63,204 nucleotides of DNA from Methanoculleus sp. (GCA_011048835.1 DSDF01000082.1:1-63204); one strand, 5' to 3'. Shown: positions 7,258 to 63,204, counted from the stretch's first letter. The notes: a model not told the origin generated them from the letters alone. A program made the numbers and translations.

Positions 7258-8169
7258 ATGAATATCACGTTTCTCTCGGGGGGAACGGGGACGCCCAAGC
7301 TGATCGCCGGGGCACGCCGGCACCTCGCCGACCGCGACCTCGCCGTGGTGGTCAACACCGCCGAGGACATGTGGGTGTCGGGAGGGCACCTGTCGCCCGA
7401 CATCGACACGGTCATGTACCTGTTCGCGGGCCTCCTGAACACCGCTACGTGGTGGGGGATCCGGGGCGACACCTTCGTCACCCACGAGTACCTCGACCGC
7501 TTCGGCGAGGCGGAGGTGATCGCGCTTGGTGACCGGGACCGTGCGGTCAACCTCGCTCGTGCGGCGATGCTCCGCCGGGGCCTCTCCCTCACCGAAGCGA
7601 CGGCGCGGCTCTGCGAGCGGATGGGCATCGAGGCGGCGGTGCTCCCCATGACCGACACAGAGGTGACCTCCTGCATCGACACCGCCGAGGGCCTGCTCCA
7701 CTTCCAGGAGTACTGGGTGAGGCGACGGGGGCAGGTCGCGATCCGCGGGGTCGTGCGCCGCTATGACGAACCGCCGGTCGCCACTTCGTCGGTGATCGGG
7801 GCGATCGAGGAGTGCGACGCGGTGGTCATCGGCCCGAGCAACCCCGTCACCAGCATCGGCCCCATCCTCGAGTGCGAGAGCGTCAGGGAAGCGCTCCGCG
7901 CCCGGTTCGTCGTCGCCGTCAGCCCGTTCATTGGCGATGCGCCGGTCAGCGGCCCGGCGGCGGCGCTGATGGAGGCGTGCGGGCACCCACCCACCGCGGC
8001 AGGGACGTTCGCCCTCTACGAGGACTTCGTCGACCTCTTCGTGCAGGACACCCGCGACACCCGCCCGATCGAGGGGGCGGCGGTGCTGGACACGCTCATG
8101 GTGGACGAGGACATAGCCGCGGTTCTCGCCGGGGCCATCCTCGATCGCATCCAGAACGCCGCCCCCTGA
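7258..8169 (+). CDS. cofD: 2-phospho-L-lactate transferase (coenzyme F420 biosynthesis)
   Basis: CofD joins the 2-phospholactyl (or related) group to the deazaflavin Fo, giving F420-0. The 303-residue protein has the family signature SGGTGTPKL at its N-terminus, VVNTAEDMWVSG, PDIDTVMYLF, WGIRGDT, the GPSNPVTSIGP loop and VAVSPFIGDAPVSGPA. I chose the ATG at 7258 because CofD proteins start directly at this first strand; the frame extends seven codons further upstream without similarity. F420 is the main hydride carrier of hydrogenotrophic methanogenesis. The gene is followed by a membrane protein gene and a divergent CofD paralogue. Confidence 0.93.
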   Translation: MNITFLSGGTGTPKLIAGARRHLADRDLAVVVNTAEDMWVSGGHLSPDIDTVMYLFAGLLNTATWWGIRGDTFVTHEYLDRFGEAEVIALGDRDRAVNLARAAMLRRGLSLTEATARLCERMGIEAAVLPMTDTEVTSCIDTAEGLLHFQEYWVRRRGQVAIRGVVRRYDEPPVATSSVIGAIEECDAVVIGPSNPVTSIGPILECESVREALRARFVVAVSPFIGDAPVSGPAAALMEACGHPPTAAGTFALYEDFVDLFVQDTRDTRPIEGAAVLDTLMVDEDIAAVLAGAILDRIQNAAP

Positions 8170-8177
8170 AGCGCACA

Positions 8178-8193
8178 CGAAGGCATATATCTC
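8178..8193 (+). promoter_or_regulatory. TATA-type promoter before the polytopic membrane protein gene
   Basis: The AT-rich box CATATATC (8184-8191), preceded by a purine-rich BRE-like stretch, sits in the 38-base gap after cofD. Its centre is 20-27 bases from the two candidate start codons (8208, 8214), which suggests a leaderless transcript. Confidence 0.5.
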
Positions 8194-8207
8194 CCGAAAT
8201 CACCTGC

Positions 8208-9191
8208 ATGAATATGGCTTCAACATACGCCGCGTTCAGCGCACTGGATGCGGCCATCGACAGGACAAAATCGCTGCTCTGGCCCTTCGATCTCGGCGTA
8301 TGGCTGCGTCTTGCGGTGATCGCCTTTTTTGTCGGGGGCACGGGCTTCAATGTCCCGAGCGGCCCTTCGTATAGTGTTTCGGGTGACGAGTTCGCCGGCA
8401 TCGGCCCTGCCGATATCGGGATCCCCGGCGGGGTCCCCGGTTTTCTCCTGCTCCTCATCGTCGTCATCGTCGCCGTCGCCATCGTGTTCTGGGTGCTAGG
8501 GGCGATCTTCCAGTTCGTCTTCGTCGACAGTCTCCGCACCGGCGAGGTCGGCATCCGGCGCTATGTCGGGCCCCGGGCAGGCAAAGGGTTCCGCCTTTTT
8601 CTGTTCGAGGCGGGACTGGCACTGCTGATTTTGTTGTTCGTCGTCATCCCGTTCGCGCTGATCTTCTTCACCACGGGGGGCCTGGATGTCAGGTTCGGGG
8701 CGCTGATGCTCATCCCCATCGTACTGCTCTTCATCGCTGCCGTCTTCGTGCTGGCGATCCTCCTGGGCCTCATCATGCTCTTTACCATCGACTTCGTGGT
8801 GCCCATCATGATCCGCGACGACTGCGGGGTGATCGACGGGTGGCGGTCCGCCTGGCGGATCATCCGGTCCGAGTGGAAACAGGCGCTCGTCTACGCAATC
8901 GTCAAATTCCTCCTTGGCATCGCCGTGGGCATCCTCATGATCATTGCCGTCGTCATCGCCGCCATCATCCTGGCCATCCCCTTTGGCATCGTCGGCGTCC
9001 TCATCGCCGCTGCAGGGGGTTCGGTGCCGGTCTATATCGTCCTCGTGGCGCTCTTCGTCCTTTTCCTGATCGTGGCCGCTCTCTTCATCTCGGTGCCCTT
9101 CGTCACCTTCCTGCGCTACTACTCACTGGAAGTGCTGGCGGCGATCGCGCCGGAGTACACCCTGCTTCCCGGGGCGGGCCCCGTAGCATAA
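8208..9191 (+). CDS. Polytopic membrane protein of unknown function (DUF7544/DUF4013-like)
   Basis: A 327-residue protein with about six long hydrophobic segments (around residues 30-45, 80-110, 140-165, 170-200, 235-275 and 280-310) rich in I, V and L. A short glycine/serine-rich loop follows the first segment. The charged stretch IRDDCGVIDGWRSAWRIIRSEW between membrane segments resembles archaeal DUF4013/DUF7544-type proteins, which have no assigned activity. The start may be the ATG at 8208 or the one two codons later. It lies between cofD and a CofD-like gene, but nothing in the sequence shows a role in F420 synthesis. Confidence 0.72.
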   Translation: MNMASTYAAFSALDAAIDRTKSLLWPFDLGVWLRLAVIAFFVGGTGFNVPSGPSYSVSGDEFAGIGPADIGIPGGVPGFLLLLIVVIVAVAIVFWVLGAIFQFVFVDSLRTGEVGIRRYVGPRAGKGFRLFLFEAGLALLILLFVVIPFALIFFTTGGLDVRFGALMLIPIVLLFIAAVFVLAILLGLIMLFTIDFVVPIMIRDDCGVIDGWRSAWRIIRSEWKQALVYAIVKFLLGIAVGILMIIAVVIAAIILAIPFGIVGVLIAAAGGSVPVYIVLVALFVLFLIVAALFISVPFVTFLRYYSLEVLAAIAPEYTLLPGAGPVA

Positions 9192-9200
9192 CTCCCATCC

Positions 9201-9206
9201 TTTTTT
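9201..9206 (+). terminator. Oligo-T terminator
   Basis: A run of six T lies 9 bases after the stop of the membrane protein gene and before the CofD-like gene. No strong hairpin precedes it. This is typical of archaeal intrinsic termination. Confidence 0.4.
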
Positions 9207-9250
9207 CCACCGGCGCAATGCTCTAGAGGAACGCCGCGCCATCAGTACTG

Positions 9251-10162
9251 ATGATCACCTTCCTTGCCGGCGGCGACGAGACCTGCAAACTGATCCGCGG
9301 CCTGCGGTCTTTTGCCGACGACAGTGACCTCGCGGTCGTCGCCGGCACCGCCGACGGCATGTGGGTGAGCGGCAACTACGCCCTGCCGGCGCTGGACGCG
9401 GTGCTGTTTCTCTTTTCGGGCATGCTCGATACGCGGGACTGGTCGGGGATCCGGGGCGATTCCTGCGCCACCGCCCGCTTCCTGCAGACCATGGGGAGGA
9501 GCGAGCCCATCATCGTCGGCGACCGCGAACGCGCCGTCCACATCGCCAGGAGCGATCTCCTTGCGGCGGGTCTCCCTCTCACCGCCGCCACCGAGGTCAT
9601 CGCCGGGCAGTTCGGCATCGCGTCGACCCTCCTCCCCATGTCCGACGACGAGGTGCACGTTGCCGTCGAGTGCGACGGCGAATGGCTGCACCTGCTCGAA
9701 TACGAGCGCATGCAGCCTCCCGTATCGGCGATACAGCGCGTCGTGCCCGTCTACCCACGCCGTCCGCGGGCAGGTGCGAAGGCGCTGGCATGCCTCGCGG
9801 CATCCCGTGCGGTCGTCATCGGGCCGGACAACCCGGTCTCGCGAGTCCTGCCGTTTCTCTGCTGCGAGGGGATGCGGGAGGCGCTCGAAGAACGGTTTAT
9901 CATCGCACTCTCCCCGTTCTCCCCCCGTGCACCGCACCGCCCCGAAATCGAGGCGATGCTTTTCGCCGAGGGGTTTTCTCCCGACGCCGCCGGGGTGCGC
10001 CGGCTCTACGGGGACATGGTCGACGTCTTCGTGCAGGACGCCCGCGATCCTGTGGAGGTCGAGGGGGCGATGCGGCTCAACTACGCCCTCACCTCGCAGG
10101 GCCGGGCGGAATCGCTCGCCTGGGACCTCATGGCGGTGATCCGGCAGCACGCCGGTGCATGA
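9251..10162 (+). CDS. CofD-like paralogue with altered active-site motifs
   Basis: This protein has exactly the same length (303 residues) and layout as the CofD encoded 1.1 kb upstream and is clearly its paralogue: DAVLFLFSGMLDTRDWSGIR and GPDNPVSRVLPFL align to CofD. Key motifs have changed. The N-terminal GGTGTPKL is GGDETCKL. VNTAEDMW is AGTADGMW. The late SPFIGDAPVSGP is SPFSPRAPHRPE. Loss of the glycine-rich nucleotide/phosphate loops argues against normal 2-phospholactate transfer from a GDP-linked donor. It may use another donor, act as a partner of CofD, or be decaying, although the frame is intact. I know of no assigned function. Confidence 0.75.
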   Translation: MITFLAGGDETCKLIRGLRSFADDSDLAVVAGTADGMWVSGNYALPALDAVLFLFSGMLDTRDWSGIRGDSCATARFLQTMGRSEPIIVGDRERAVHIARSDLLAAGLPLTAATEVIAGQFGIASTLLPMSDDEVHVAVECDGEWLHLLEYERMQPPVSAIQRVVPVYPRRPRAGAKALACLAASRAVVIGPDNPVSRVLPFLCCEGMREALEERFIIALSPFSPRAPHRPEIEAMLFAEGFSPDAAGVRRLYGDMVDVFVQDARDPVEVEGAMRLNYALTSQGRAESLAWDLMAVIRQHAGA

Positions 10163-10181
10163 TACGGCGGTGCGGTGCGCG

Positions 10182-10200
10182 GGAATCCATTCCGGATTCC
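10182..10200. repeat. Inverted repeat upstream of aspS
   Basis: GGAATCC-ATTCC-GGATTCC has perfect 7-bp arms around a 5-base spacer, 47 bases before the aspS start. It could be an operator or a weak terminator of the CofD-like gene. No second copy was noticed. Confidence 0.4.
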
Positions 10201-10246
10201 ACAACACAGAATAAGCCGGAGGTTCCATAGTTGAGCAGGATTTTTC

Positions 10247-11536
10247 ATGGCTCAACCAATCAGCACGGTAACCCCGGAAACCGAATACGCAGAGATCCAC
10301 GGATGGGTGCACGAAATACGCGACCTCGGCGGCCTCTCCTTCTTTTTAATCAGGGACCGCACCGGCATCATCCAGGTGACCATCGTCAAGAAGAAAGCCC
10401 TCGAAGCCGTCGTCGAGGCGGCCAAAGCGGTGTCGCGTGAATCGGTGGTCCGCGTCGCCGGGACGGTCAAGGGCATCGAGAAGGCCCCCGGCGGCCGCGA
10501 ACTCGTCCCGGACACCTTCGAGATCATCGCCCTCGCCGCCGTCCCGCTGCCCCTCGACGTCTCGGAAAAGGTGCCCGCTGAGCTCGACACCCGGCTCGAC
10601 GGCCGGTACCTCGACGCCCGGCGCCCGCGGGTCACCGCGGTCTTCCAGGTGCGGAGCTGCGTCCTCGGCGTCATCCACGAGCTGCTCTACGCCGAGGGCT
10701 TCATCAACATCCAGACGCCGAAAGTGGTGGCGGCGGCGACGGAAGGCGGGACAGAACTCTTCCCCATCGCCTACTTCGAAAAGGAGGCATTCCTCAACCA
10801 GAGCCCCCAGCTCTACAAGCAGATGATGATGGCGGCGGGCTTCGAGAAGGTCTTCGAGATCGGCCCCATCTTTCGCGCCGAGGAGCACAACACCACCCGG
10901 CACCTCAACGAGGCGACCTCCATCGACGTCGAGGTCTCCTTCGCCGACCACCATGACGTGATGGACCTGCTCGAGCGCATCATCGTCGAGGTGTACTCCC
11001 GGGTGGCCGACACCTGCCCTGCAGCGCTCGCACAGCTGGGCACCGATCTCGACGTGCCGAAGGCGCCCTTCCCGCGCCTCCCCTACGCCGAGGCCATCGA
11101 CATCGCCTCCTCCCGGATCGAAGAAGACCTCGCCTACGGCGATGACATGGGCACCGCAGCGGAGCGGGCGCTCGGCGAGGAGATGGGCGAGCACTACTTC
11201 ATCACCGACTGGCCCACCGAGATCAAGCCCTACTACGCCATGCCCTACGAGGACGACCCCGGGATCTGCAAGGCCTTCGACCTCATGCACCCCCGGATGG
11301 AACTCTCCAGCGGTGCCCAGCGCGTCCATGACCACGACCTCCTGGTAAGCCGGATCGAGAGCAAGGGCCTTTCTGCGGAGAGCTTCGAATTCTATCTCGA
11401 GCCGTTCCGGTACGGCATGCCCCCCCATGCGGGATGGGGGCTGGGGGCCGAGCGCCTGGTCATGACCATGCTCGATCTCCCCAATATCCGCGAGGCGGTG
11501 CTCTTCCCGCGGGACCGGCACCGGTTGACGCCATGA
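10247..11536 (+). CDS. aspS: Aspartyl-tRNA synthetase, archaeal type (Asp or Asp/Asn)
   Basis: A 429-residue class IIb synthetase. The N-terminal OB-fold anticodon-binding domain (about 1-105) includes [19 protein letters not shown]. The class II core has motif 2 in [20 protein letters not shown] and motif 3 in [21 protein letters not shown]. The compact length without the bacterial GAD insertion marks the archaeal/eukaryotic type. Many archaeal members are non-discriminating and also charge tRNA-Asn for later amidation; sequence alone does not decide this. It shares an ATGA overlap with the downstream methionine synthase gene, so the two are translationally coupled. Confidence 0.95.
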
Positions 11537-12429
11537 CGCTGATGCGAAAACTGCTGCCGACCACGGTGGTGGGCAGCTACCCCGTCGTCCGGGGCAAAGG
11601 GCTTCGCACCCTCCTCGACCCGCTCGGCCACGCGGTGGAGATGGCCATTGCCGACCAGCTGCAGGCGGGCATCGACATCATCTCGGACGGACAGGTGCGG
11701 GGCGACATGATCGGCATGATCGCCGGCTCGTTGCCTGGCATCAAGCACCGCGACGTGACCGGGACCGTGCGGGCGCCGACGAAGCCCATCACCCTCGCCG
11801 ACACCCGCTACGCCCTCTCCCGCCACCCCAAGGTCAAGGGGATTCTCACCGGCCCCTCGACGCTCGCCCACGGACTCAGGATCGCCACCCCCGCCTATCG
11901 CAACAAGGCCGAAGTGGCGCTCGACATCGCCCAGGCGCTCGCCGTCGAGGCCCGGGCGCTGGAGGATGCGGGCGTGACCGTCATCCAGATCGACGAGCCC
12001 ATCCTCTCCACGGGGGCGGTTGATCTCCACGCCGCCCAGCACGCGGTGCATACCATCACCTCCCTGCTGCGGGTGCCCACCTGCCTGCACGTCTGCGGCG
12101 ACCTCTCGGCGGTGATCGACGATATCCTGCGGATACGGGTGAACATCCTCGATTTCGAGTTTGCCAACAACCCGGCGAATCGCGATCTCATCTGCCGCAA
12201 AGACCTTGGGGGAAGGATGCTCGGCTACGGCGTGGTCGACTCCTCCGATCCGGCGGTGGAGAGCGTCGAGGTCATCGAGGGCCGGATCCGGCAGGCGGTC
12301 GACTCCTTCGACCCGGCGACGCTGCTCATCGACCCCGACTGCGGGCTGCGCATGCTCACGCGCGAGGCGGCGTTTGAAAAACTGCGCAATATGGCGACCG
12401 CAGCCGCTCGGGTGCGAACCGGGCTGTAA
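11533..12429 (+). CDS. Core methionine synthase (MetE C-terminal domain type, corrinoid-dependent)
   Basis: A 298-residue single-domain relative of the C-terminal half of MetE. The zinc-binding His and Cys are in CLHVCGDL, and the final Cys ligand is in [23 protein letters not shown] and [10 protein letters not shown] are typical of the family. It lacks the N-terminal folate-binding half, as in methanogens, where methyl groups reach homocysteine from methylcobamide (probably on MtrA) rather than methyl-tetrahydrofolate. It starts at the ATG overlapping the aspS stop. A second, more divergent core-MetE protein lies in the acs operon at 61765. Confidence 0.88.
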
Positions 12430-54247: not shown

Positions 54248-54367
54248 ACGGGTTCCAGGGCCATTTCTCTCCACGCGGGGTCGTATCATCCTAGCCGGGG
54301 CTCTGCAGGCACATATACCGCGGTGCTTTAAGGTCAGCTGTCACATACCCACATGATTGGTGATGTC

Positions 54368-55426
54368 ATGACGGAACCCGCGCCCTCCCCTTCTGCGAAA
54401 GCGGGGATGCCCCCCGGCTCGCTCGTGCACATCGGCCCGGCACCCCCGCTGGCGACTGCGATTACGCTGTTCCGGTACAGCGGAAAGGGAATTGCCGAGC
54501 GAAAGGGAGCGACGCTTGCAGAGGTGACCGCCCCCCTCCCCGAAGGAGCGGTGACCTGGATCGATTGCTCGGGCCTGGGCGATATCCGGGCGGTGGAGGC
54601 GATCGGCGCACGGTTCTCGATCCACCCCCTCACCCTCGAGGATATCCTCAACACCCGGCAGAGGCCGAAAATCGAGTATTTCGACCACTACATCTACGTG
54701 GTTTGCAAGATGCTTTCGCTCGAGGAACGGGAAATCCGCACCGAGCAGGTCAGCATTCTCCTCGGCGAAGGGTTTGTCCTCACCTTCCAGGAGCGGGAGG
54801 GCGACGTGTTCGACCCGGTGCGCGCCCGTCTGCGTGCGGGGGGAAACCGGATACGAAGGGAGGAAGCCTGCTATCTCGCCTATTCTCTGCTCGATGCCGT
54901 TGTCGACGGCTACTACGCCATTTTCGAGTGGTTCGGTGAGGTGATCGAGGATCTGGAAGACGAACTCCTCGACGGGCCCGGTACCCGGACACTGCAGGCA
55001 ATCCACGAGAAAAAACGCCTCCTTATCATGATCCGCCGCTCCATCTGGCCGCTGCGCGAGGTGGTGGGTGCGTTCGAGCGGGTGGAATCGCCGCTCGTGA
55101 CCGGCATCACCCCCGTGTACCTCCGTGATGTCTACGACCATACCGTCGAGCTCGTCGAAACCCTCGAGACCTACCGTGATATGATGGGCGGCATGATCGA
55201 TATCTACCTCTCCACAACCAGCAACCGCATGAACGAGATCATGAAGGTGCTGACCATCATCGCCACGATTTTCATCCCTCTCACGTTTATCGCGGGCCTT
55301 TACGGGATGAACTTTGTCGGGATGCCAGAGCTCTCGCATCGCTATGGCTACCCGGCGGTGCTGCTCCTCATGCTTGCGGTGGGGCTCGTCGAGATCTGGT
55401 TTTTCAGGAAGAGAGGGTGGTTGTGA
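54368..55426 (+). CDS. corA: CorA-type magnesium/cobalt/nickel transporter
   Basis: A 352-residue CorA family channel. The cytosolic funnel domain (about 1-285) contains HPLTLEDILNTRQRPKIEYF. Two C-terminal membrane helices follow, with the signature YGMNFVGMPE after the first helix and a basic tail RKRGWL. CorA conducts Mg2+, and some members Co2+ or Ni2+. The neighbouring nickel- and cobalt-dependent acs operon makes metal supply attractive, but this is only context. I prefer the ATG at 54368 (GGTGAT upstream) over the one five codons earlier. Confidence 0.92.
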   Translation: MTEPAPSPSAKAGMPPGSLVHIGPAPPLATAITLFRYSGKGIAERKGATLAEVTAPLPEGAVTWIDCSGLGDIRAVEAIGARFSIHPLTLEDILNTRQRPKIEYFDHYIYVVCKMLSLEEREIRTEQVSILLGEGFVLTFQEREGDVFDPVRARLRAGGNRIRREEACYLAYSLLDAVVDGYYAIFEWFGEVIEDLEDELLDGPGTRTLQAIHEKKRLLIMIRRSIWPLREVVGAFERVESPLVTGITPVYLRDVYDHTVELVETLETYRDMMGGMIDIYLSTTSNRMNEIMKVLTIIATIFIPLTFIAGLYGMNFVGMPELSHRYGYPAVLLLMLAVGLVEIWFFRKRGWL

Positions 55427-55515: not shown

Positions 55516-57546
55516 ATGACGTCGATTGATACTGTCCTGGCATCGGGTCGGGAGCGTCTCGATGAGGAAATGGATGCGCTGGAAGGGAGTGTCGGGTACG
55601 AGGAGACGGCATATGCGCTCCCCGTGACCTATGCCGTCACCGGCATGGCGGTGCATGACGCGGCAAGCGCACGGGAGGCATACGCCGCTTCCGGATCCAG
55701 CGTGCTCGTGGCGGGAGAGTGCCTTGCGGCGGCGGGGTATGCCGCCGAAGGGGGGGAAGGGGAGCCCTACACGGGGTTTGTGCCCGACACGGTGCTGCGC
55801 AGGCTCGGGTATTCGCTGGTGGACGGCAGTATCGCAGGGATCGGTCTCGTCGCCGGATCGCCGGATGACGCCGATGCGGCCGCCGCCATCTGCCGGGAGA
55901 TGCAGGAGAAGTACCTGCTCACCTTCCTTGCAGGCGGGGTGATTAAAACCCTCACCGAGGCGGGGGTGAAGGTGGGGCTCGAGTACCGCCTCGTCCCCCT
56001 GGGCTCCACCGGCATGGCGGCGATACATTTCGCCGATATCATCGCCCGCGTGGCGATGATGTTCGGGGGCGTTCAGCCCGGGGATACGGACCGCCTGCTC
56101 AATTACGCCGCCGAACGGGCGAAAGCATTCGTGATTGCCTTTCCGGGCCTCGAAGACGAGGAGGTCGCGGTCATCGATGGTTTCCGGGTGCTGAGCATCC
56201 CCATCCTCACCCCGGAGGGGTATGAAGGCGGGGAATGGATCCGCGTCCCCTACCTCGAAGCGGTGCGGGAAGGGATGGAGCGGCGCGGGATCCGGGTCAA
56301 CGTGGTCGCCATCCCGATTCCCATGGCCTGCTCTCCGGCGTTCGAGGGGAAAAGCATCCGGAAAGAGGAGATGTACGTGGAATTCGGGGGGGCGAAGGCG
56401 GCGGCATTCGAACTCCTCCGCGTGCGGCCCGCGGACGAGGTGGAGGACGGCCGCGTCGAGGTGATCGGCCCGGAGGTGGGCGACCTCGAAGAAGGGTCGG
56501 CGGTGCCGCTGGCAATTCTCGTGGACGTGGCCGGCGCATCGATGAAGAAGGATTACGAACCGGTCCTCGAGCGCAGGATCCACACGTTCCTCAACTACGG
56601 GGAGGGGTCGTGGCATGTCGCCCAGCGCGACCTCGTCTGGGTGCGGCTCACGAAAGACGTGGTCCGGCGGGGCGTAGCGATCGCGGACCTGGGCAGGCTG
56701 CTCGCAAGCAAGTTCCGCGTGGAGTTTCCCGACCTGCTCGATGCCGTGCAGGTGACGCTGGTGACGGACCGGGAGCGCGTGGAGGCGATGCTCGAGGAGG
56801 CCCGGGCCATCTACGACGAGCGCGACGAGCGCATCGCGGGCATGAAGGACGAGGATGTCGGGACCTATTACTCCTGCACCCTCTGCCAGACATTCGCCCC
56901 CAACCACGTCTGCATCATCACCCCCGAACGCCCCGCCCTCTGCGGTGCGATCACCTGGCTGGATGCGAAAATCGCCTACGAGATCGCGCCTGCGGGGGCC
57001 AACCAGCCTGTGGAGAAAGGCGAGCTGATCGATCCCGTCCTCGGCCAGTTCGAGGGGGTGAACCGCTTCGTGAAGAAAGCCTCGCACAGCGCGGTGGACC
57101 GGGTCTCTCTCTACGGGATGATGGAGGAGCCGATGACCTGCTGCGGGTGTTTCGAGTGCATTGCCACGATCCTGCCCGAGGTGAACGGGATCATGATCGT
57201 CAACCGCGATTACCTCGGCGACACGCCGCTGGGCATGACCTTCTCCACTCTCGCCGGCACCATCGGCGGCGGGGCCCAGACACCCGGGTTCGTGGGAATC
57301 TCGAAGGGCTATATCCTCAGCGACCGGTTCCTGCAGGCGGAGAACGGGATCGAGCGGGTGGTCTGGATGCCGTCGCTGCTCAGAAACGAATTGAAGGGCC
57401 GGCTCGAAGAGAAGCTCGAACGGATGGGCATTCCTGAATTGTTCGACAAAATCGCCGACGAGACGGTCGCCGTGAGCGTCGAGGACCTGGCCGAATTCCT
57501 GGCGCGGGTGGATCATCCCGCCCTCGCGATGCGGCCGCTTATTTAG
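55516..57546 (+). CDS. acsB: Acetyl-CoA synthase, bacterial type (AcsB)
   Basis: A 676-residue acetyl-CoA synthase that makes or cleaves acetyl-CoA from CO, CoA and a methyl-corrinoid. All A-cluster ligands are present: C454, C457, C466 and C476 for the [4Fe-4S] cluster, then C543-G544-C545 for the distal nickel. The spacing is identical to that of Moorella AcsB (506, 509, 518, 528; 595-597). About 450 residues precede the cluster, so the N-terminal CODH-contact domain is kept. Archaeal CdhC lacks this domain, which marks the protein as bacterial type. It heads the operon. No CODH gene is adjacent on its 5' side. Confidence 0.95.
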   Translation: MTSIDTVLASGRERLDEEMDALEGSVGYEETAYALPVTYAVTGMAVHDAASAREAYAASGSSVLVAGECLAAAGYAAEGGEGEPYTGFVPDTVLRRLGYSLVDGSIAGIGLVAGSPDDADAAAAICREMQEKYLLTFLAGGVIKTLTEAGVKVGLEYRLVPLGSTGMAAIHFADIIARVAMMFGGVQPGDTDRLLNYAAERAKAFVIAFPGLEDEEVAVIDGFRVLSIPILTPEGYEGGEWIRVPYLEAVREGMERRGIRVNVVAIPIPMACSPAFEGKSIRKEEMYVEFGGAKAAAFELLRVRPADEVEDGRVEVIGPEVGDLEEGSAVPLAILVDVAGASMKKDYEPVLERRIHTFLNYGEGSWHVAQRDLVWVRLTKDVVRRGVAIADLGRLLASKFRVEFPDLLDAVQVTLVTDRERVEAMLEEARAIYDERDERIAGMKDEDVGTYYSCTLCQTFAPNHVCIITPERPALCGAITWLDAKIAYEIAPAGANQPVEKGELIDPVLGQFEGVNRFVKKASHSAVDRVSLYGMMEEPMTCCGCFECIATILPEVNGIMIVNRDYLGDTPLGMTFSTLAGTIGGGAQTPGFVGISKGYILSDRFLQAENGIERVVWMPSLLRNELKGRLEEKLERMGIPELFDKIADETVAVSVEDLAEFLARVDHPALAMRPLI

Positions 57547-57560
57547 GAGAGGATGGGCAC

Positions 57561-58538
57561 ATGAGCGAAGAGCACAATCCTGAACCGGGCAACCGGATCC
57601 TGGAGGTCCGCCTTGGCGCGACGAAGGCGGAGGGAGGGACGCGGGAACGCGTGTATACGGTGGGGGGCGCGGGTACGTTCCCGTTTCTCGGCGCGGGGCC
57701 CGCCGCGGGCCACCCGCCCCGTATCGCCCTTGAAATCTGCGATGATACCCGCACGTGGTCGCCGATCGTGCTCCGCGAGGTCGGGGATCTTGCGGAGGAT
57801 ACGGGTGCATGGGCTGCGGCGGCCGAGACGACGTTCGGCGCGGATATGGTGCGCCTCTCCTTCACCAGCACCCGGCAGCGGGGATTCGACGATTTCGCCT
57901 CGCTGGGCACCACGGTGGAGGAGGTGATCGGGGCGACGAAGTACCCCCTGATCGTCGAGGGGAGCACCGAACCCGCCATCGATTCCGAGGTCTACCGGCG
58001 GATCGGCGAGGCCGCGGAAGGCGAACGCGTCCTGCTCGGGACCGCGGAAGCCGACCGCTACCGCAGCGTGGCGGCATCGGCGCTCGCCTACGGGCACGCC
58101 GTGGTCGCCCAGACGCCCATCGACATCAACCTGGCAAAGCAGCTCAACATCCTGCTGCATGAGACTGCGCTCCCCCCCGAGAGGATCGTCATCGACCCGT
58201 ACACCGGCACCCTGGGGTATGGTTTCGAGTACTCCTACTCGGTGATGGAGCGCATCCGCTCAGTCGCCCTGCAGGGGGACGCCGATCTCGCCCGCCCCAT
58301 GATCAGTTCGGCCATCGATTCCCTCAATGTCAAGGAGGTGCGGGAGGCGGACCCGGAGACCGCGGACGAAGTGGCGATCCGCTGGGAATTTTATGCGGCG
58401 TTTTCCGCGCTCATCGCAGGGGCGGAGATCGTGTGCGTCCGCCACCCCGGCACGGTGGCGCTGTTGCGGGAGGCGCTCCGGGCGCTTCTGGAAGGATCTC
58501 ATCCACAGGAGGAAGCATATGGCGATGAAAGCGCTTGA
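57561..58538 (+). CDS. acsD: Corrinoid iron-sulfur protein small subunit (AcsD)
   Basis: A 325-residue TIM-barrel subunit of the corrinoid iron-sulfur protein. The pattern RIALEICDDTRTWSP, ADMVRLSFTSTRQRG, YPLIVEGSTEPAID and IVIDPYTGTLGYGFEYSYSVMERIR fits AcsD/CdhD. With AcsC it carries the cobalt corrinoid that donates the methyl group to AcsB. It starts 15 bases after acsB with GGAGAGGAT upstream, and overlaps acsC by 20 bases. Confidence 0.94.
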   Translation: MSEEHNPEPGNRILEVRLGATKAEGGTRERVYTVGGAGTFPFLGAGPAAGHPPRIALEICDDTRTWSPIVLREVGDLAEDTGAWAAAAETTFGADMVRLSFTSTRQRGFDDFASLGTTVEEVIGATKYPLIVEGSTEPAIDSEVYRRIGEAAEGERVLLGTAEADRYRSVAASALAYGHAVVAQTPIDINLAKQLNILLHETALPPERIVIDPYTGTLGYGFEYSYSVMERIRSVALQGDADLARPMISSAIDSLNVKEVREADPETADEVAIRWEFYAAFSALIAGAEIVCVRHPGTVALLREALRALLEGSHPQEEAYGDESA

Positions 58539-59853
58539 CATCTACAAGTTACTCCCCAAAACCAACTGCAAGAAATGCGGGTTTCCCACCTGCCTCGCAT
58601 TTGCCATGAAACTTGCCTCGGGCAAGGTGGATGTGGATCTCTGCCCCGACCTCGACGAGCAGACGCGGGAGTTGCTGGGCGGGGCCACTCGCCCCCCCAT
58701 CCGGCTGGTTGCCATCGGCGCGGGGGAGCGGTCGTTTACCGTGGGCGAGGAGTTCGTGCTCTACCGGCATGAGCGGACGTTCTACCATCAGCCCGGGCTG
58801 ATGATGCAGGTTGCCGATACGTGGCCGGAGGAGCGGATCGAGGGGGTCGTGGCGCGGGTGCGTGACGAGACCTTCCACCGCGTCGGGGAGGATCTCTCCG
58901 TCGACGGCATCGCGTTCCGCTGGGAGTCCGGCGATGCGGACCGGTTCGGCGGGGTTGTCGGGACGGTGGAGGCGTGCGCGAGCGTTCCCGAAGTGATCAT
59001 CGCCGACGACCCGGAGGCGCAGGCGGCGGCGCTCGCCCATTGCGGCAACTTCCAGCCGCTCATCCATGCGGCATGCGCCGACACCGCCGAGGCGATGTGC
59101 GATCTCGCCAGAAAATACGGCTGTGCGCTGGCGGTGCGGGCAGGCGACCTCGAGGAACTCAAACGCCTCGTGGGGTTGTGCAGGGACCGCGGCGTCGAGA
59201 ACCTGATGCTCGACCCCGCTCCCGCGACCCTGCGCGACTTCCTCGCCCGGTCGGTCGAGATACGCCGGCGTGCGGTGGAGCGTACCGATCCCGACCTCGG
59301 CTACCCGGTGGTCTTCGATACCGTGCCGCTCGGTCTGCCCGACGCTGCGACGGCGCTCGGGATCCTGAAATATGCCGGTGTCATCATCATCGACGAGCTC
59401 GGGCCCGCCTCCACGATGGCAGCCCTCACCCTCCGCCAGAACATCTACACCGACCCGCAGAAGCCCATCCAGGTGACGCCGGGGCTCTACCCGGTCAATG
59501 CCCCGACCGGCAGCGCCCCCGTGCTGATGACCGTCAATTTCTCCCTCACCTACTTCACCCTGCTCGGCTACCTCGAGGCGGCGGGCATTCCCTGCTATCT
59601 CTTCATCGTGGACACGGAGGGGATGTCCGTGCTCACCGCCGTTGCCGGCGGCAAGCTCACCGAGACGCTGGTGGCGGACGCGATCAAAACGACTGAACTG
59701 GAGAACCGGGTCGATCACCGGGTCCTGATCATCCCCGGCTACGCGGCACCGCTCAGCGGCAAGATCGAGGAGGAGACGGGGTGGGAGGTGCGGGTGGGCC
59801 CGGGCGATGCGGCCGAGATCGGGGAGTACCTGGAGACCGGGTGGGAGGCCTGA
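58519..59853 (+). CDS. acsC: Corrinoid iron-sulfur protein large subunit (AcsC)
   Basis: A 444-residue protein. The N-terminal [4Fe-4S] domain has cysteines C17, C20, C25 and C42 (NCKKCGFPTCLAFAM). A TIM-barrel and a C-terminal corrinoid-binding domain (ITPGLYPVNAPTGSAP-like and VDTEGMSVLTAVAGG stretches) follow. It is the methyl carrier between a methyltransferase and acetyl-CoA synthase. The ATG at 58519 is chosen for AGGAGGAA upstream; the frame extends further up but lies inside acsD. The acsV ATG follows after one base. Confidence 0.94.
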   Translation: MAMKALDIYKLLPKTNCKKCGFPTCLAFAMKLASGKVDVDLCPDLDEQTRELLGGATRPPIRLVAIGAGERSFTVGEEFVLYRHERTFYHQPGLMMQVADTWPEERIEGVVARVRDETFHRVGEDLSVDGIAFRWESGDADRFGGVVGTVEACASVPEVIIADDPEAQAAALAHCGNFQPLIHAACADTAEAMCDLARKYGCALAVRAGDLEELKRLVGLCRDRGVENLMLDPAPATLRDFLARSVEIRRRAVERTDPDLGYPVVFDTVPLGLPDAATALGILKYAGVIIIDELGPASTMAALTLRQNIYTDPQKPIQVTPGLYPVNAPTGSAPVLMTVNFSLTYFTLLGYLEAAGIPCYLFIVDTEGMSVLTAVAGGKLTETLVADAIKTTELENRVDHRVLIIPGYAAPLSGKIEEETGWEVRVGPGDAAEIGEYLETGWEA

Positions 59854-59854
59854 T

Positions 59855-61765
59855 ATGCCCACGGTCACCTTTCTGCCCGGGTTTCACAAAGCCGACGTCC
59901 CCCGGGGGGCCACCATCCTCGATGCCGCCCAGCGCGCCGGGCTGCACGTGAACGTGGTCTGCGGGGGCCAGGGCCGGTGCGGAAAGTGCGTGGTGTACCT
60001 GAAAAGCGGAAAGATCACCTTCGACCGGGAGAAGTTCGGGCACTTTTTCACCGCTGAGGAGCTGGACCGCGGGGCGTGCCTCGCGTGCCAGTCGCTCGTG
60101 AGAAACGACCTGCGCGTGGAGGTGCCGGCATCGTCGCTCGTGCAGGAGCAGAAGATCCTCGTCGAGTCCCGTGCGGCGGAGATCCCGTTCCGCCCCTCCG
60201 TCAGGAAGTACTCCCTCGAGCTCACCCCTCCATCGCTCACCGACACCACCCCCGATATCACCCGCCTGCTGGAGGGGATCGAGGCGCAAGGCGGTCCTGC
60301 CGCGAACAAGATCTACGCGCCCCTCGAGGTGCTCCGCTCCGTTCCCCAGCTGCTGCGGCAGGGGGGCTGGCGCGTCACCGGCACCGTCGCGCTGGTCCCC
60401 GGCGGCTACCGCCTCATCAAGGTCGAGGAGGGCAACACCGAGGGGCGCCTCTACGGGGCGGCGGTCGATCTCGGCACGACCACCATCGTCGTATACCTCT
60501 GGGATCTCGCCACCGCCTCCGTGATCGCCACCGCCTCCAACTACAACCGGCAGATCGGGTACGGCGAGGACATCCTCTCCCGAGTCAACTTCGCCCGGAA
60601 AAACGGTCTGTCCAAACTGCAGCGGCTCGCCGCCGAGAGCATCAATCAGGCCCTCACCGCGGCGGCGAACAATGCCGGGATCGACCGGGAGGACATCCAC
60701 GAGGTGGTCGTCGCCGGCAACACGGTGATGACCCACCTTTTGCTCTGCATCGATCCGGGGTACATGATCGCCGAGCCTTACGTGCCTGTGGTCCGCCGGA
60801 TGCTTTCCACGGCGGCAGGCAGGATCGGCCTTGCCGTGCATCGCAATGCGGGGGTCTATACCTTCCCGGCGGTCTCCAACTTCATCGGGGGGGACATCAT
60901 CGCGGACATCCTCGCCTGCGGGATGACCGAGCGGGAGGAGATCTCCCTTTTGATCGATATCGGCACCAATTTCGAGGTGGTGATCGGCAACCGGGACTGG
61001 ATGCTCTCCTGTGCGGGTGCCGCCGGACCGGCGCTCGAGGGTGGCGAGGTGCTCTTCGGGATGCGGGCCAACCCGGGAGCGATGGAGAAGGTCCGCATCG
61101 ACGGCGGCACCCTCAAGCCCACCTATGAGACCATCAACCGCGTCCGGCCCAAAGGCATCTGCGGTTCGGGGCTCATCGATCTGCTTGCAGAGCTCATCCG
61201 CGCCTGCGTCATCGACCGCAACGGGCACATCAATATGGGTATCAGGCACCCGCGGGTCCGGCAGGGCCGCTACTTCCCCGAGTTCGTGATCGCCTGGGCC
61301 GACGAGACCGATGGCGAGCGGGATATCGTGATCACCGAAAACGACATCAAAAACCTGATCATGAGCAAAGCGGCGATCCTTGGCGCCTGCATGACCCTGA
61401 TGGACGCCGCCGGGATCACGCGGGAGGATCTCGCCGGCATCTACTTCTCCGGCGCGTTCGGCAACTACCTGAACAAGGAGAACGCCATCGCCGTCGGCCT
61501 CATCCCGGAAGTCCCCCTCGACGCGGTGAAAAACATCGGCAACGGAGCCATCACGGGGGCCAATCTCGCCCTTATCAGCCGCGACCGCCGCCGCAACCTC
61601 GACCGCATCGCCCAGCAGATCACGTATATCGAGCTCAATGCTGAACCCTCCTTCATGGACCAGTACACCTCCAGCTGCTTTCTGCCCCACACCGATCTCT
61701 CTCTCTTTCCGGGGGTGCAGCGGGTGCTCGACGAGTGCCGCATCCGCTACGGGGGGGCGGAGTGA
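59855..61765 (+). CDS. acsV: Corrinoid reductive activator (AcsV / RACo type)
   Basis: A 636-residue protein that uses ATP to reduce inactive Co(II) corrinoid protein to Co(I). The N-terminal plant-type [2Fe-2S] ferredoxin domain (about 1-95) has cysteines in VCGGQGRCGKCVVY and ACLACQS. A linker is followed by the ASKHA ATPase core: GAAVDLGTTTIVVYLWDL, NYNRQIGYGEDILSR, IDIGTNFEVVIGN and CGSGLIDLLAELI. It matches bacterial AcsV from acs operons. It overlaps the MetE-like gene by TGATG. Confidence 0.94.
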   Translation: MPTVTFLPGFHKADVPRGATILDAAQRAGLHVNVVCGGQGRCGKCVVYLKSGKITFDREKFGHFFTAEELDRGACLACQSLVRNDLRVEVPASSLVQEQKILVESRAAEIPFRPSVRKYSLELTPPSLTDTTPDITRLLEGIEAQGGPAANKIYAPLEVLRSVPQLLRQGGWRVTGTVALVPGGYRLIKVEEGNTEGRLYGAAVDLGTTTIVVYLWDLATASVIATASNYNRQIGYGEDILSRVNFARKNGLSKLQRLAAESINQALTAAANNAGIDREDIHEVVVAGNTVMTHLLLCIDPGYMIAEPYVPVVRRMLSTAAGRIGLAVHRNAGVYTFPAVSNFIGGDIIADILACGMTEREEISLLIDIGTNFEVVIGNRDWMLSCAGAAGPALEGGEVLFGMRANPGAMEKVRIDGGTLKPTYETINRVRPKGICGSGLIDLLAELIRACVIDRNGHINMGIRHPRVRQGRYFPEFVIAWADETDGERDIVITENDIKNLIMSKAAILGACMTLMDAAGITREDLAGIYFSGAFGNYLNKENAIAVGLIPEVPLDAVKNIGNGAITGANLALISRDRRRNLDRIAQQITYIELNAEPSFMDQYTSSCFLPHTDLSLFPGVQRVLDECRIRYGGAE

Positions 61766-62799
61766 TGGCCTCGCTCCTCCCCCCGCCCCGCCTTGCCGCC
61801 ACCGGCGTGGGCGGGCTTCCCCACAGCGACCCGGAGGTCGCCTGCAGGGCGGTGCTGGAGAGTTTCCCGGAGGTGCCCTACGCCCCCACCCTGCCCAACC
61901 GGGGGCCGCGGGAGGCGATCGTCTTCAATGACGCCGAATACCTGCCGGGTGCGGTGTTTGAAGGCGACAAACTCTACGCAAATACCGCCGCGGACCATGC
62001 AGGCCAGATGGAGCAGATCATGCTCGACTACATGGAGGGGAATTTCGCTGCGTACGGTGCGTCGGAGGAGTACAATTCGGGCTTTCTCGCGATGCTGGAA
62101 TGCGATCTCTCGGGGGCGCTGTTCGCCAAGGCGCAGGTCACCGGGCCCCTGACCTTCGGCATGCAGGTGGTCGACCAAAAGAAACGCCCGCTCCACTACG
62201 ACCCCGAATACGCGGACCTGCTCAACAAGATGATCGCGCTGCGCGCCCGGTGGTACGAGGAGCGGCTGACTGCGCGGACCGGGGCGCCGCACACCCTCGT
62301 GGTGCTCAACGAGCCCTACCTTGCCGCCTTCGGCTCGTCGGTGATCCCGGTGGACCGCGACCTTGTGGCGGCGGGGTTCGAAGAGACCGCAGCGCTGCTG
62401 GAGGGGGGTATCGGGGTTCACTGCTGCTCCAATACCGACTGGGCCTTCGTGCTCGGCATGGATATCGGGTTCGTCTCCCTCGATGCCTACCGGTATGCCA
62501 GGGAATTCCTGCTCTACCGGGACGCGATCACCCGGTTCATGGAGGCGGGAGGCGTGGTCGCCTGGGGCATCGTGCCCGCGGAGTATGATGTCTACGAAGG
62601 AGAAACACCGGATTCGCTCTATACCCGCATGAGCGCCATCCGGGATGACGTCTGTTCGTGGCTCGACCCGGAACTCTTCGCCCGCCAGTCGATGATCACG
62701 CCGACCTGCGGGATCCGGTTCGCCGACGAGCGGGGGGCGGGAGCGATCATGCGCGCCGCCGCCGACCTTTCGCGCCGGGCGCGGGAGGAATGGGCGTGA
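61765..62799 (+). CDS. MetE/UROD-fold methyltransferase, probable corrinoid-dependent methionine synthase
   Basis: A 344-residue TIM-barrel protein of the MetE-C/UROD group. TGVGGLPHSDPEVACRAV and AQVTGPLTFGMQVVD are family-like. Zinc ligands are plausible in IGVHCCSNTDWAF and TPTCGIRFADE. It is embedded in the acs operon, overlapping acsV by one base and the AcsF-type gene by GTGA. It is therefore expected to exchange methyl groups with the corrinoid iron-sulfur protein (AcsCD), for example to make methionine. A second core MetE lies at 11533. Replacement of the absent AcsE methyltransferase is the alternative. Confidence 0.78.
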   Translation: MASLLPPPRLAATGVGGLPHSDPEVACRAVLESFPEVPYAPTLPNRGPREAIVFNDAEYLPGAVFEGDKLYANTAADHAGQMEQIMLDYMEGNFAAYGASEEYNSGFLAMLECDLSGALFAKAQVTGPLTFGMQVVDQKKRPLHYDPEYADLLNKMIALRARWYEERLTARTGAPHTLVVLNEPYLAAFGSSVIPVDRDLVAAGFEETAALLEGGIGVHCCSNTDWAFVLGMDIGFVSLDAYRYAREFLLYRDAITRFMEAGGVVAWGIVPAEYDVYEGETPDSLYTRMSAIRDDVCSWLDPELFARQSMITPTCGIRFADERGAGAIMRAAADLSRRAREEWA

Positions 62800-63204
62800 G
62801 CAGGACGTGCACCATCGTGGTCTGCGGGAAGGGGGGGACCGGCAAGACCACCATCTCGGCCCTGCTCGTCCGGTCGTTCATCGAGGCGGGGGTGAGGCCC
62901 GTGCTCGCCGTCGATGCGGATCCCAACGCCAACCTCCACGAGGCGCTGGGCGTGGATCTGGCAGAGACGCTCGGATGCATGCGGGAGGAGGCGTTCACCC
63001 GGAGCATTCCCCCCGGGATGGACCGAACCTCGTACATCAAATACCGCTTCCGGACGGTGCTCGTCGAGGCGGAGGGCTTCGACCTGCTCGCCATGGGCCG
63101 GCCCGAGGGAACGGGCTGCTACTGTTTTCCGAACTCCCTTCTGGGAGAGTGCATGCACCTCCTCGGGGAGGAATACCCGGTCACCGTCGTCGATTCGGAG
63201 GCCG
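62796..63204 (+). CDS. acsF: AcsF/CooC-type nickel-insertion ATPase (cut by window edge)
   Basis: The first 136 residues of a MinD-like metal-insertion ATPase, starting with GTG in a GTGA overlap. The deviant Walker A is VVCGKGGTGKTTISALL. AVDADPNANLHEALG is the switch region. The metal-binding CxC is in GTGCYCFPNSLL, and VTVVDSEA at the edge begins Walker B. These proteins load nickel into CO dehydrogenase (CooC) or acetyl-CoA synthase (AcsF). The operon context favours AcsF, but CooC cannot be excluded without the rest. Confidence 0.88.
   Translation, partial: MSRTCTIVVCGKGGTGKTTISALLVRSFIEAGVRPVLAVDADPNANLHEALGVDLAETLGCMREEAFTRSIPPGMDRTSYIKYRFRTVLVEAEGFDLLAMGRPEGTGCYCFPNSLLGECMHLLGEEYPVTVVDSEA

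Follow-up and report, generated by a model that had tools for sequence, protein, structure and literature searches.

What would a methanogen do with an acetyl-CoA synthase (ACS) of the bacterial type and no carbon monoxide dehydrogenase (CODH) beside it? According to a 2024 cryo-EM study, no methanogen ACS, nor any other modern archaeal one, has the N-terminal A1 domain, and methanogen CdhC takes its CO alcove from CODH instead of from A1 (PMC11474084). The question is raised by positions 55516-63204 of a Methanoculleus sp. contig (DSDF01000082.1; the whole stretch of 63,204 nucleotides is called the window here), part of a metagenome-assembled genome (MAG) in 139 contigs that is 96% complete. 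An operon in the order acsB-acsD-acsC-acsV-[MesB-like zinc methyltransferase]-acsF/cooC lies there, truncated where the contig ends at 63204. Starting from what is observed, namely gene content and order, the absence of CODH, the catalytic metal ligands and the co-occurrence of AcsB with the MesB-like protein, we tentatively propose that the operon is a self-contained, CODH-independent acetyl-CoA decarbonylase module that passes a methyl group to a thiol via AcsCD and the MesB-like enzyme, a reading that we think a little more apt to be wrong than right. The genes are as follows.

55516-57546, plus strand: acsB, acetyl-CoA synthase with N-terminal A1 domain, 676 aa (NF040764, 901 bits against a cut-off of 800; PF19436, PF03598)
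57561-58538, plus strand: acsD, small subunit of the corrinoid iron-sulfur protein (NF003376, 328 bits, over cut-off; PF03599)
58525-59853, plus strand: acsC, large corrinoid iron-sulfur subunit with a 4Fe-4S motif (NF003195, 531 bits, over cut-off; PF04060, PF03599)
59855-61765, plus strand: acsV-like RACo reductive activator, 2Fe-2S and ASKHA (PF14574, PF17651, PF17650, PF00111)
61765-62799, plus strand: mesB-like zinc thiol methyltransferase, 344 aa (zinc ligands and MetE fold)
62790-63204, plus strand: acsF/cooC nickel-insertion ATPase, 3′ end missing at the contig end

The acsC start codon (ATG at 58525) overlaps acsD, and the ATG of the mesB-like gene has one base in common with the acsV stop codon. 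AcsV scores 566 bits against NF040756, under the 800-bit cut-off of that model, and also matches the RamA activator model. At the locus of a relative whose AcsB is 96% identical (L003), the last gene is an entire cooC of 249-255 aa followed by a convergent gene, and we therefore take the unit to consist of six genes. The AcsF/CooC of the window is 39-44% identical to the CooC copy that adjoins AcsV in most Bacillota operons and about 30-35% identical to the Bacillota copy upstream of acsB. The window yielded nothing when scanned for Rfam families and tRNAs. An earlier note, made from this sequence alone, had named AcsB, AcsD, AcsC, AcsV and AcsF/CooC, all of which are present, and had overlooked the mesB-like gene. 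It had also seen neither a CODH subunit nor AcsE. Both remarks stand: no match to PF03063 or TIGR01702 was found anywhere in the window genome, and AcsE is not in the operon at any locus seen, a statement about the operon, as no whole-genome search for AcsE was made.

The same note had described AcsB as bacterial in type, with a long N-terminal region, which NF040764, alignment and structural models bear out. The protein aligns with the ACS of Carboxydothermus hydrogenoformans across A1, A2 and A3, starting at residue 57, and its AlphaFold2 model, searched with Foldseek, matches that monomeric ACS (1ru3), the isolated A1 domain (6yua) and the full C. autoethanogenum subunit (6ytt, TM-score 0.84 by query). 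In trees, AcsB and archaeal CdhC are separated with 100/100 support. The A-cluster cysteines are 454, 457, 466, 476, 543 and 545; their spacing of 3-9-10-67-2 is, as had been claimed, that of Moorella AcsB (506/509/518/528/595/597), and all six are conserved in every alignment row. The start of the A1 region is some 45-50 residues shorter than in Carboxydothermus. The idea that this reflects the loss of a docking site for CODH was rejected, since the start is almost equally short in the C. autoethanogenum ACS.

Within the A1 domain, one residue of the CO alcove deviates.

55810-55812, plus strand: codon of AcsB Tyr99, aligned with CO-alcove Ile146 of Moorella and Ile149 of C. hydrogenoformans

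All 75 distinct Methanomicrobiales AcsB sequences have Tyr here, against Val, Ile or Leu in all 49 distinct bacterial sequences. Three of the four conserved alcove positions (Ile/Leu/Val/Thr146, Val149, Phe229, Phe512) are thus kept in the order, 146 being the deviant; Arg142 and all cluster cysteines are kept as well. In a 2025 study, Ile, Leu, Val and Thr are the only residues listed for position 146; its authors propose that strain on the Ni-acetyl bond comes from this side chain, and describe the N-terminal domain as critical when the reverse reaction cleaves the C-C bond (PMC12289521). Bulk in the alcove can also raise the affinity for CO, as in the F229W variant, which binds CO 80-fold tighter (PMC11321310), so the tyrosine may act in either direction.

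By itself, the overlooked fifth gene matches no entry in Pfam, NCBIfam or the PDB sequences, and a MesB profile run against PDB sequences returned chance matches only. The AlphaFold2 model of its product (predicted local distance difference test score 94) has the cobalamin-independent methionine synthases (MetE) as its best fold matches. The zinc ligands are H219, C221, D240 and C315, a set (H-C-D/E-C) that is invariant across the aligned rows. By sequence and modelled fold, the product is a MesB-type homologue of core MetE. In the window protein, G17 and N182 replace the Ser and Asp (equivalents of Ser433 and Asp599) that bind homocysteine.

To place these features we surveyed 135 Methanomicrobiales genomes, each at least 90% complete, telling long from short ACS types by frame length and place. 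An ACS of the CdhC family is present in 73 genomes: the long type in 63, the short archaeal type in 41 and both in 31. The MesB-like gene accompanies long AcsB without exception (63/63) and is missing from all 72 remaining genomes, ten of which have archaeal CdhC alone. Furthermore, the order acsB-acsD-acsC-acsV-mesB-cooC is found at essentially every Methanomicrobiales locus that is long enough to display it (about 50-60 loci), a Methanospirillum MAG (L074) is among the carriers, and in none of 20 Bacillota acs regions does MesB adjoin acs. At four Methanoregula loci (L055, L020, L060 and L061), an insert of about 0.6-3 kb splits the operon between acsC and acsV.

The absence of CODH from the window MAG is by itself weak evidence, as the MAG is 96% complete and its sister genome (G060) has CooS; the argument for CODH independence therefore rests on the whole order. 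Of the operon genomes that lack archaeal CdhC, ten encode no CODH; the window genome and a complete single-contig genome (G033) belong to these, and three of the ten have only Hcp. CooS is found in 21 of the 32 genomes that have the operon alone versus 37 of the 62 lacking any ACS (Fisher p = 0.66). Across the order, CODH is optional for the operon. The frame length of prismane genes, long versus short, was tried as a test for CooS and dropped, because some CooS genes were missed as judged by TIGR01702. In two assemblies (G095:C1 and G130:C6), unlike in the rest checked, CooS and the acs operon are at most about 11 kb apart.

The earlier note had left open whether the system supplies acetyl-CoA or cleaves it for methyl groups. 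The mesB-like gene sits in the operon, and this favours methyl transfer over net supply; it is this gene that points to the function, rather than the lack of AcsE. We infer that the reaction would run in the direction of cleavage, with release of CO and a thiol as methyl acceptor. Acetyl-CoA would bind AcsB at the Ni-Ni-[4Fe-4S] A-cluster, with the CO alcove furnished by AcsB's own A1 domain, where archaeal CdhC has to borrow one from CODH. The C-C bond would be cleaved, CoA and CO would be released, and the methyl group would pass to the Co(I) of AcsCD. AcsV would re-reduce inactive Co(II), and AcsF/CooC would load nickel. The MesB-like enzyme would activate a thiol on zinc, which would then be methylated from methyl-AcsCD. 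The simplest acceptor would be homocysteine, the thiol known for the MesB family, giving methionine as in Dehalococcoides mccartyi; the altered pocket would permit another thiol, such as coenzyme M. In D. mccartyi, which is without AcsE, AcsB, AcsCD and core-MetE have been proposed to pass the methyl group of acetate to methionine (PMC7005905, PMC7857596).

Several observations weigh against this proposal. Archaeal Cdh is also carried by 31 of the operon genomes, and the 21 CooS-bearing genomes among the 32 without CdhC could have an intracellular supply of CO. In about 60 of the 65 Methanomicrobiales rows, A/G and N/S take the place of the Ser and Asp that bind homocysteine by its carboxyl and amino groups. 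Moreover, methionine is already covered, since MesA is present in 132 of the 135 genomes irrespective of the operon. In the window genome it is encoded by a gene whose product retains both the homocysteine-binding Ser and Asp and the zinc ligands.

11434-12429 (likely start 11533), plus strand: mesA-type core methionine synthase (PF01717, 147 bits, the sole match in the genome)

These points bear on a possible, though doubtful, variant in which the MesB-like enzyme would serve as a methyl-corrinoid:coenzyme M methyltransferase, making acetyl-CoA + HS-CoM interconvertible with methyl-S-CoM + CO + CoA free of CODH. The pocket residues that are invariant in bacterial MesB (the Ser, the Asp, W40 and Q42) are changed in the clade and the zinc ligands are not. 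Ser and Asp are kept in 10 of 10 bacterial MesB sequences and in 3 of 3 archaeal ones of family f7 outside the order (L230-L232, from G643, G641 and G644). Nearly all genomes already have MesA, AcsV matches the RamA activator model, and the layout resembles the methylotrophic MT1/corrinoid/RamA/MT2 systems. However, three sequences nested in the Methanomicrobiales MesB clade (L029, L042 and L057) have both Ser and Asp, which makes the residues look exchangeable and weakens their loss as proof of a new substrate. Nor was a coenzyme M-binding signature identified, and the best fold matches are to MetE rather than to coenzyme M methyltransferases. A complete CODH-free acetyl-CoA:coenzyme M system, in which an A1-ACS with a tyrosine alcove, AcsCD and a MesB derivative of new specificity would feed acetate or CO into the methyl pool without CdhABCDE, seems to us rather unlikely.

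We consider it improbable that the operon instead synthesizes acetyl-CoA, with a methyl group from the C1 pool reaching AcsCD via the MesB-like enzyme and CO drawn from CooS or scavenged. ACS is reversible and CooS is present in many genomes, and a bulky alcove residue can tighten CO binding, so the tyrosine might suit the scavenging of trace CO. However, CODH is absent from ten operon genomes, and it would be uphill to methylate the corrinoid with methionine as donor. The lack of association between CooS and the operon also led us to reject net autotrophic synthesis with CooS as the principal explanation. Furthermore, Methanospirillum hungatei needs acetate and has an acs/Cdh cluster whose role its genome paper calls 'undefined' (PMC4704411), a combination that argues against net acetyl-CoA synthesis, and the operon occurs in the Methanospirillum MAG noted above. 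Finally, the operon can hardly be archaeal Cdh or a recent bacterial contaminant: it does lie at a contig end of a 139-contig MAG, but its AcsB has A1 and is separate from CdhC, the same operon recurs in dozens of independent Methanomicrobiales assemblies, complete single-contig genomes included, its neighbour corA is kept in relatives, and its GC content (0.660 versus 0.635 ± 0.013 elsewhere) falls inside the local range of 0.615-0.661, at the top, in agreement with the earlier view that base composition is like that of the neighbours.

Where the operon came from is a separate matter. Methanomicrobiales form one clade in each of the AcsB, AcsC, AcsD and MesB trees. This and the occurrence in 63 of 135 genomes speak against a private or recent transfer; the best fit is that the order has long had the operon and has lost it many times. 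No bacterial donor was located among the sampled bacteria, which did not include Chloroflexota or Desulfobacterota. Nesting of AcsB, AcsC and AcsD inside bacteria, which the note had looked to as support for transfer, did not emerge. For AcsB, the Methanomicrobiales clade branches next to the sampled bacteria on a long stem, its placement unresolved in one tree and outside those bacteria in a quick tree (SH-aLRT 96), and a claim that it nests within them was dropped on the latter; in the AcsD tree, the clade groups weakly with archaeal CdhD. AcsV was likewise rejected as a mark of bacterial origin, as some archaeal cdh loci have AcsV-like genes nearby too. Given the A1 domain, a bacterial donor of the operon is plausible.

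Two further ACS arrangements turned up in the comparison set. In an archaeon of family f7 (L151, G135; 8167-12300, minus strand), a frame of 1377 aa fuses a CooS-type CODH (PF03063 at residues 53-621) to a complete bacterial-type ACS, with acsC, acsD, acsV and cooC alongside; this natural CODH-ACS fusion may be new. In two Bacillota genomes, G549 and G372 (L187, 8566-9753; L188, 13740-14930), an A1-less ACS of about 396 aa groups with archaeal CdhC at 100/100 and is accompanied by its own AcsC and AcsD, adjoining a full bacterial acs operon in G372. This looks like a mirror-image transfer.

Immediately upstream of the operon lies one more gene on the same strand.

54353-55426, plus strand: corA, divalent metal transporter, directly upstream of acsB (TIGR00383, 317 bits)

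It occupies the same place and strand in 11 relatives, 37-95 bp upstream of acsB, which only suggests membership of the operon unit; possibly it supplies nickel or cobalt for ACS and the corrinoid protein. No flanking partner kept across the order was found, corA being confined to one subclade.

In the literature, mostly open-access, we found no account of an A1-type ACS in methanogens, of its CODH independence, of AcsB-MesB co-occurrence, of the alcove tyrosine or of the pocket change; the A1 domain in a methanogen ACS and the tyrosine thus appear to be new. The 63 genomes contradict the statement that A1 is missing, on which an evolutionary argument has been built (PMC11474084). A CODH-independent module for methyl salvage would be a testable answer to the role of the Methanospirillum ACS genes, which the genome papers leave open on account of the organism's need for acetate, and may explain why acetate-dependent methanogens retain ACS genes, the operon being present in almost half of the hydrogenotrophs of the order. 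The invariant tyrosine, for its part, offers a natural experiment on the factors that decide in which direction ACS runs.

Compared with known systems, the operon combines parts of several. It has in common with the archaeal acetyl-CoA decarbonylase/synthase complex (CdhABCDE) the ACS A2 and A3 domains and a corrinoid protein, and at the Cdh loci of some relatives an AcsV-like gene likewise lies within 10 kb; CdhC, in contrast, is without A1, borrows its alcove from CODH (PMC11474084) and falls in a clade separate from AcsB. With the bacterial CODH/ACS of Moorella, Carboxydothermus and C. autoethanogenum it shares the A1-A2-A3 architecture, the A-cluster, AcsCD, AcsV and AcsF, and departs from them in that the operon is without a CODH partner or AcsE, acsD is second and the alcove carries Tyr. 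The link of mesB to acsC/acsD in methanogens was published by Price et al. 2021, and the HCDC zinc ligands and the acsC/acsD linkage (here within one operon) are those of the MesB family as described there; the equivalents of Ser433 and Asp599 are mostly A/G and N/S in Methanomicrobiales, and ACS type, CODH independence and order-wide co-occurrence do not figure in the accessible portion of that account. D. mccartyi differs in that the Methanomicrobiales genes form one six-gene operon in methanogen hosts that also have MesA, with an ACS that departs at one alcove residue and a MesB-like enzyme that departs in its thiol pocket. In both, however, CODH is dispensable, AcsE is absent (for Methanomicrobiales, from the operon), and ACS and the corrinoid protein are tied to a core-MetE enzyme in acetate-dependent hosts.

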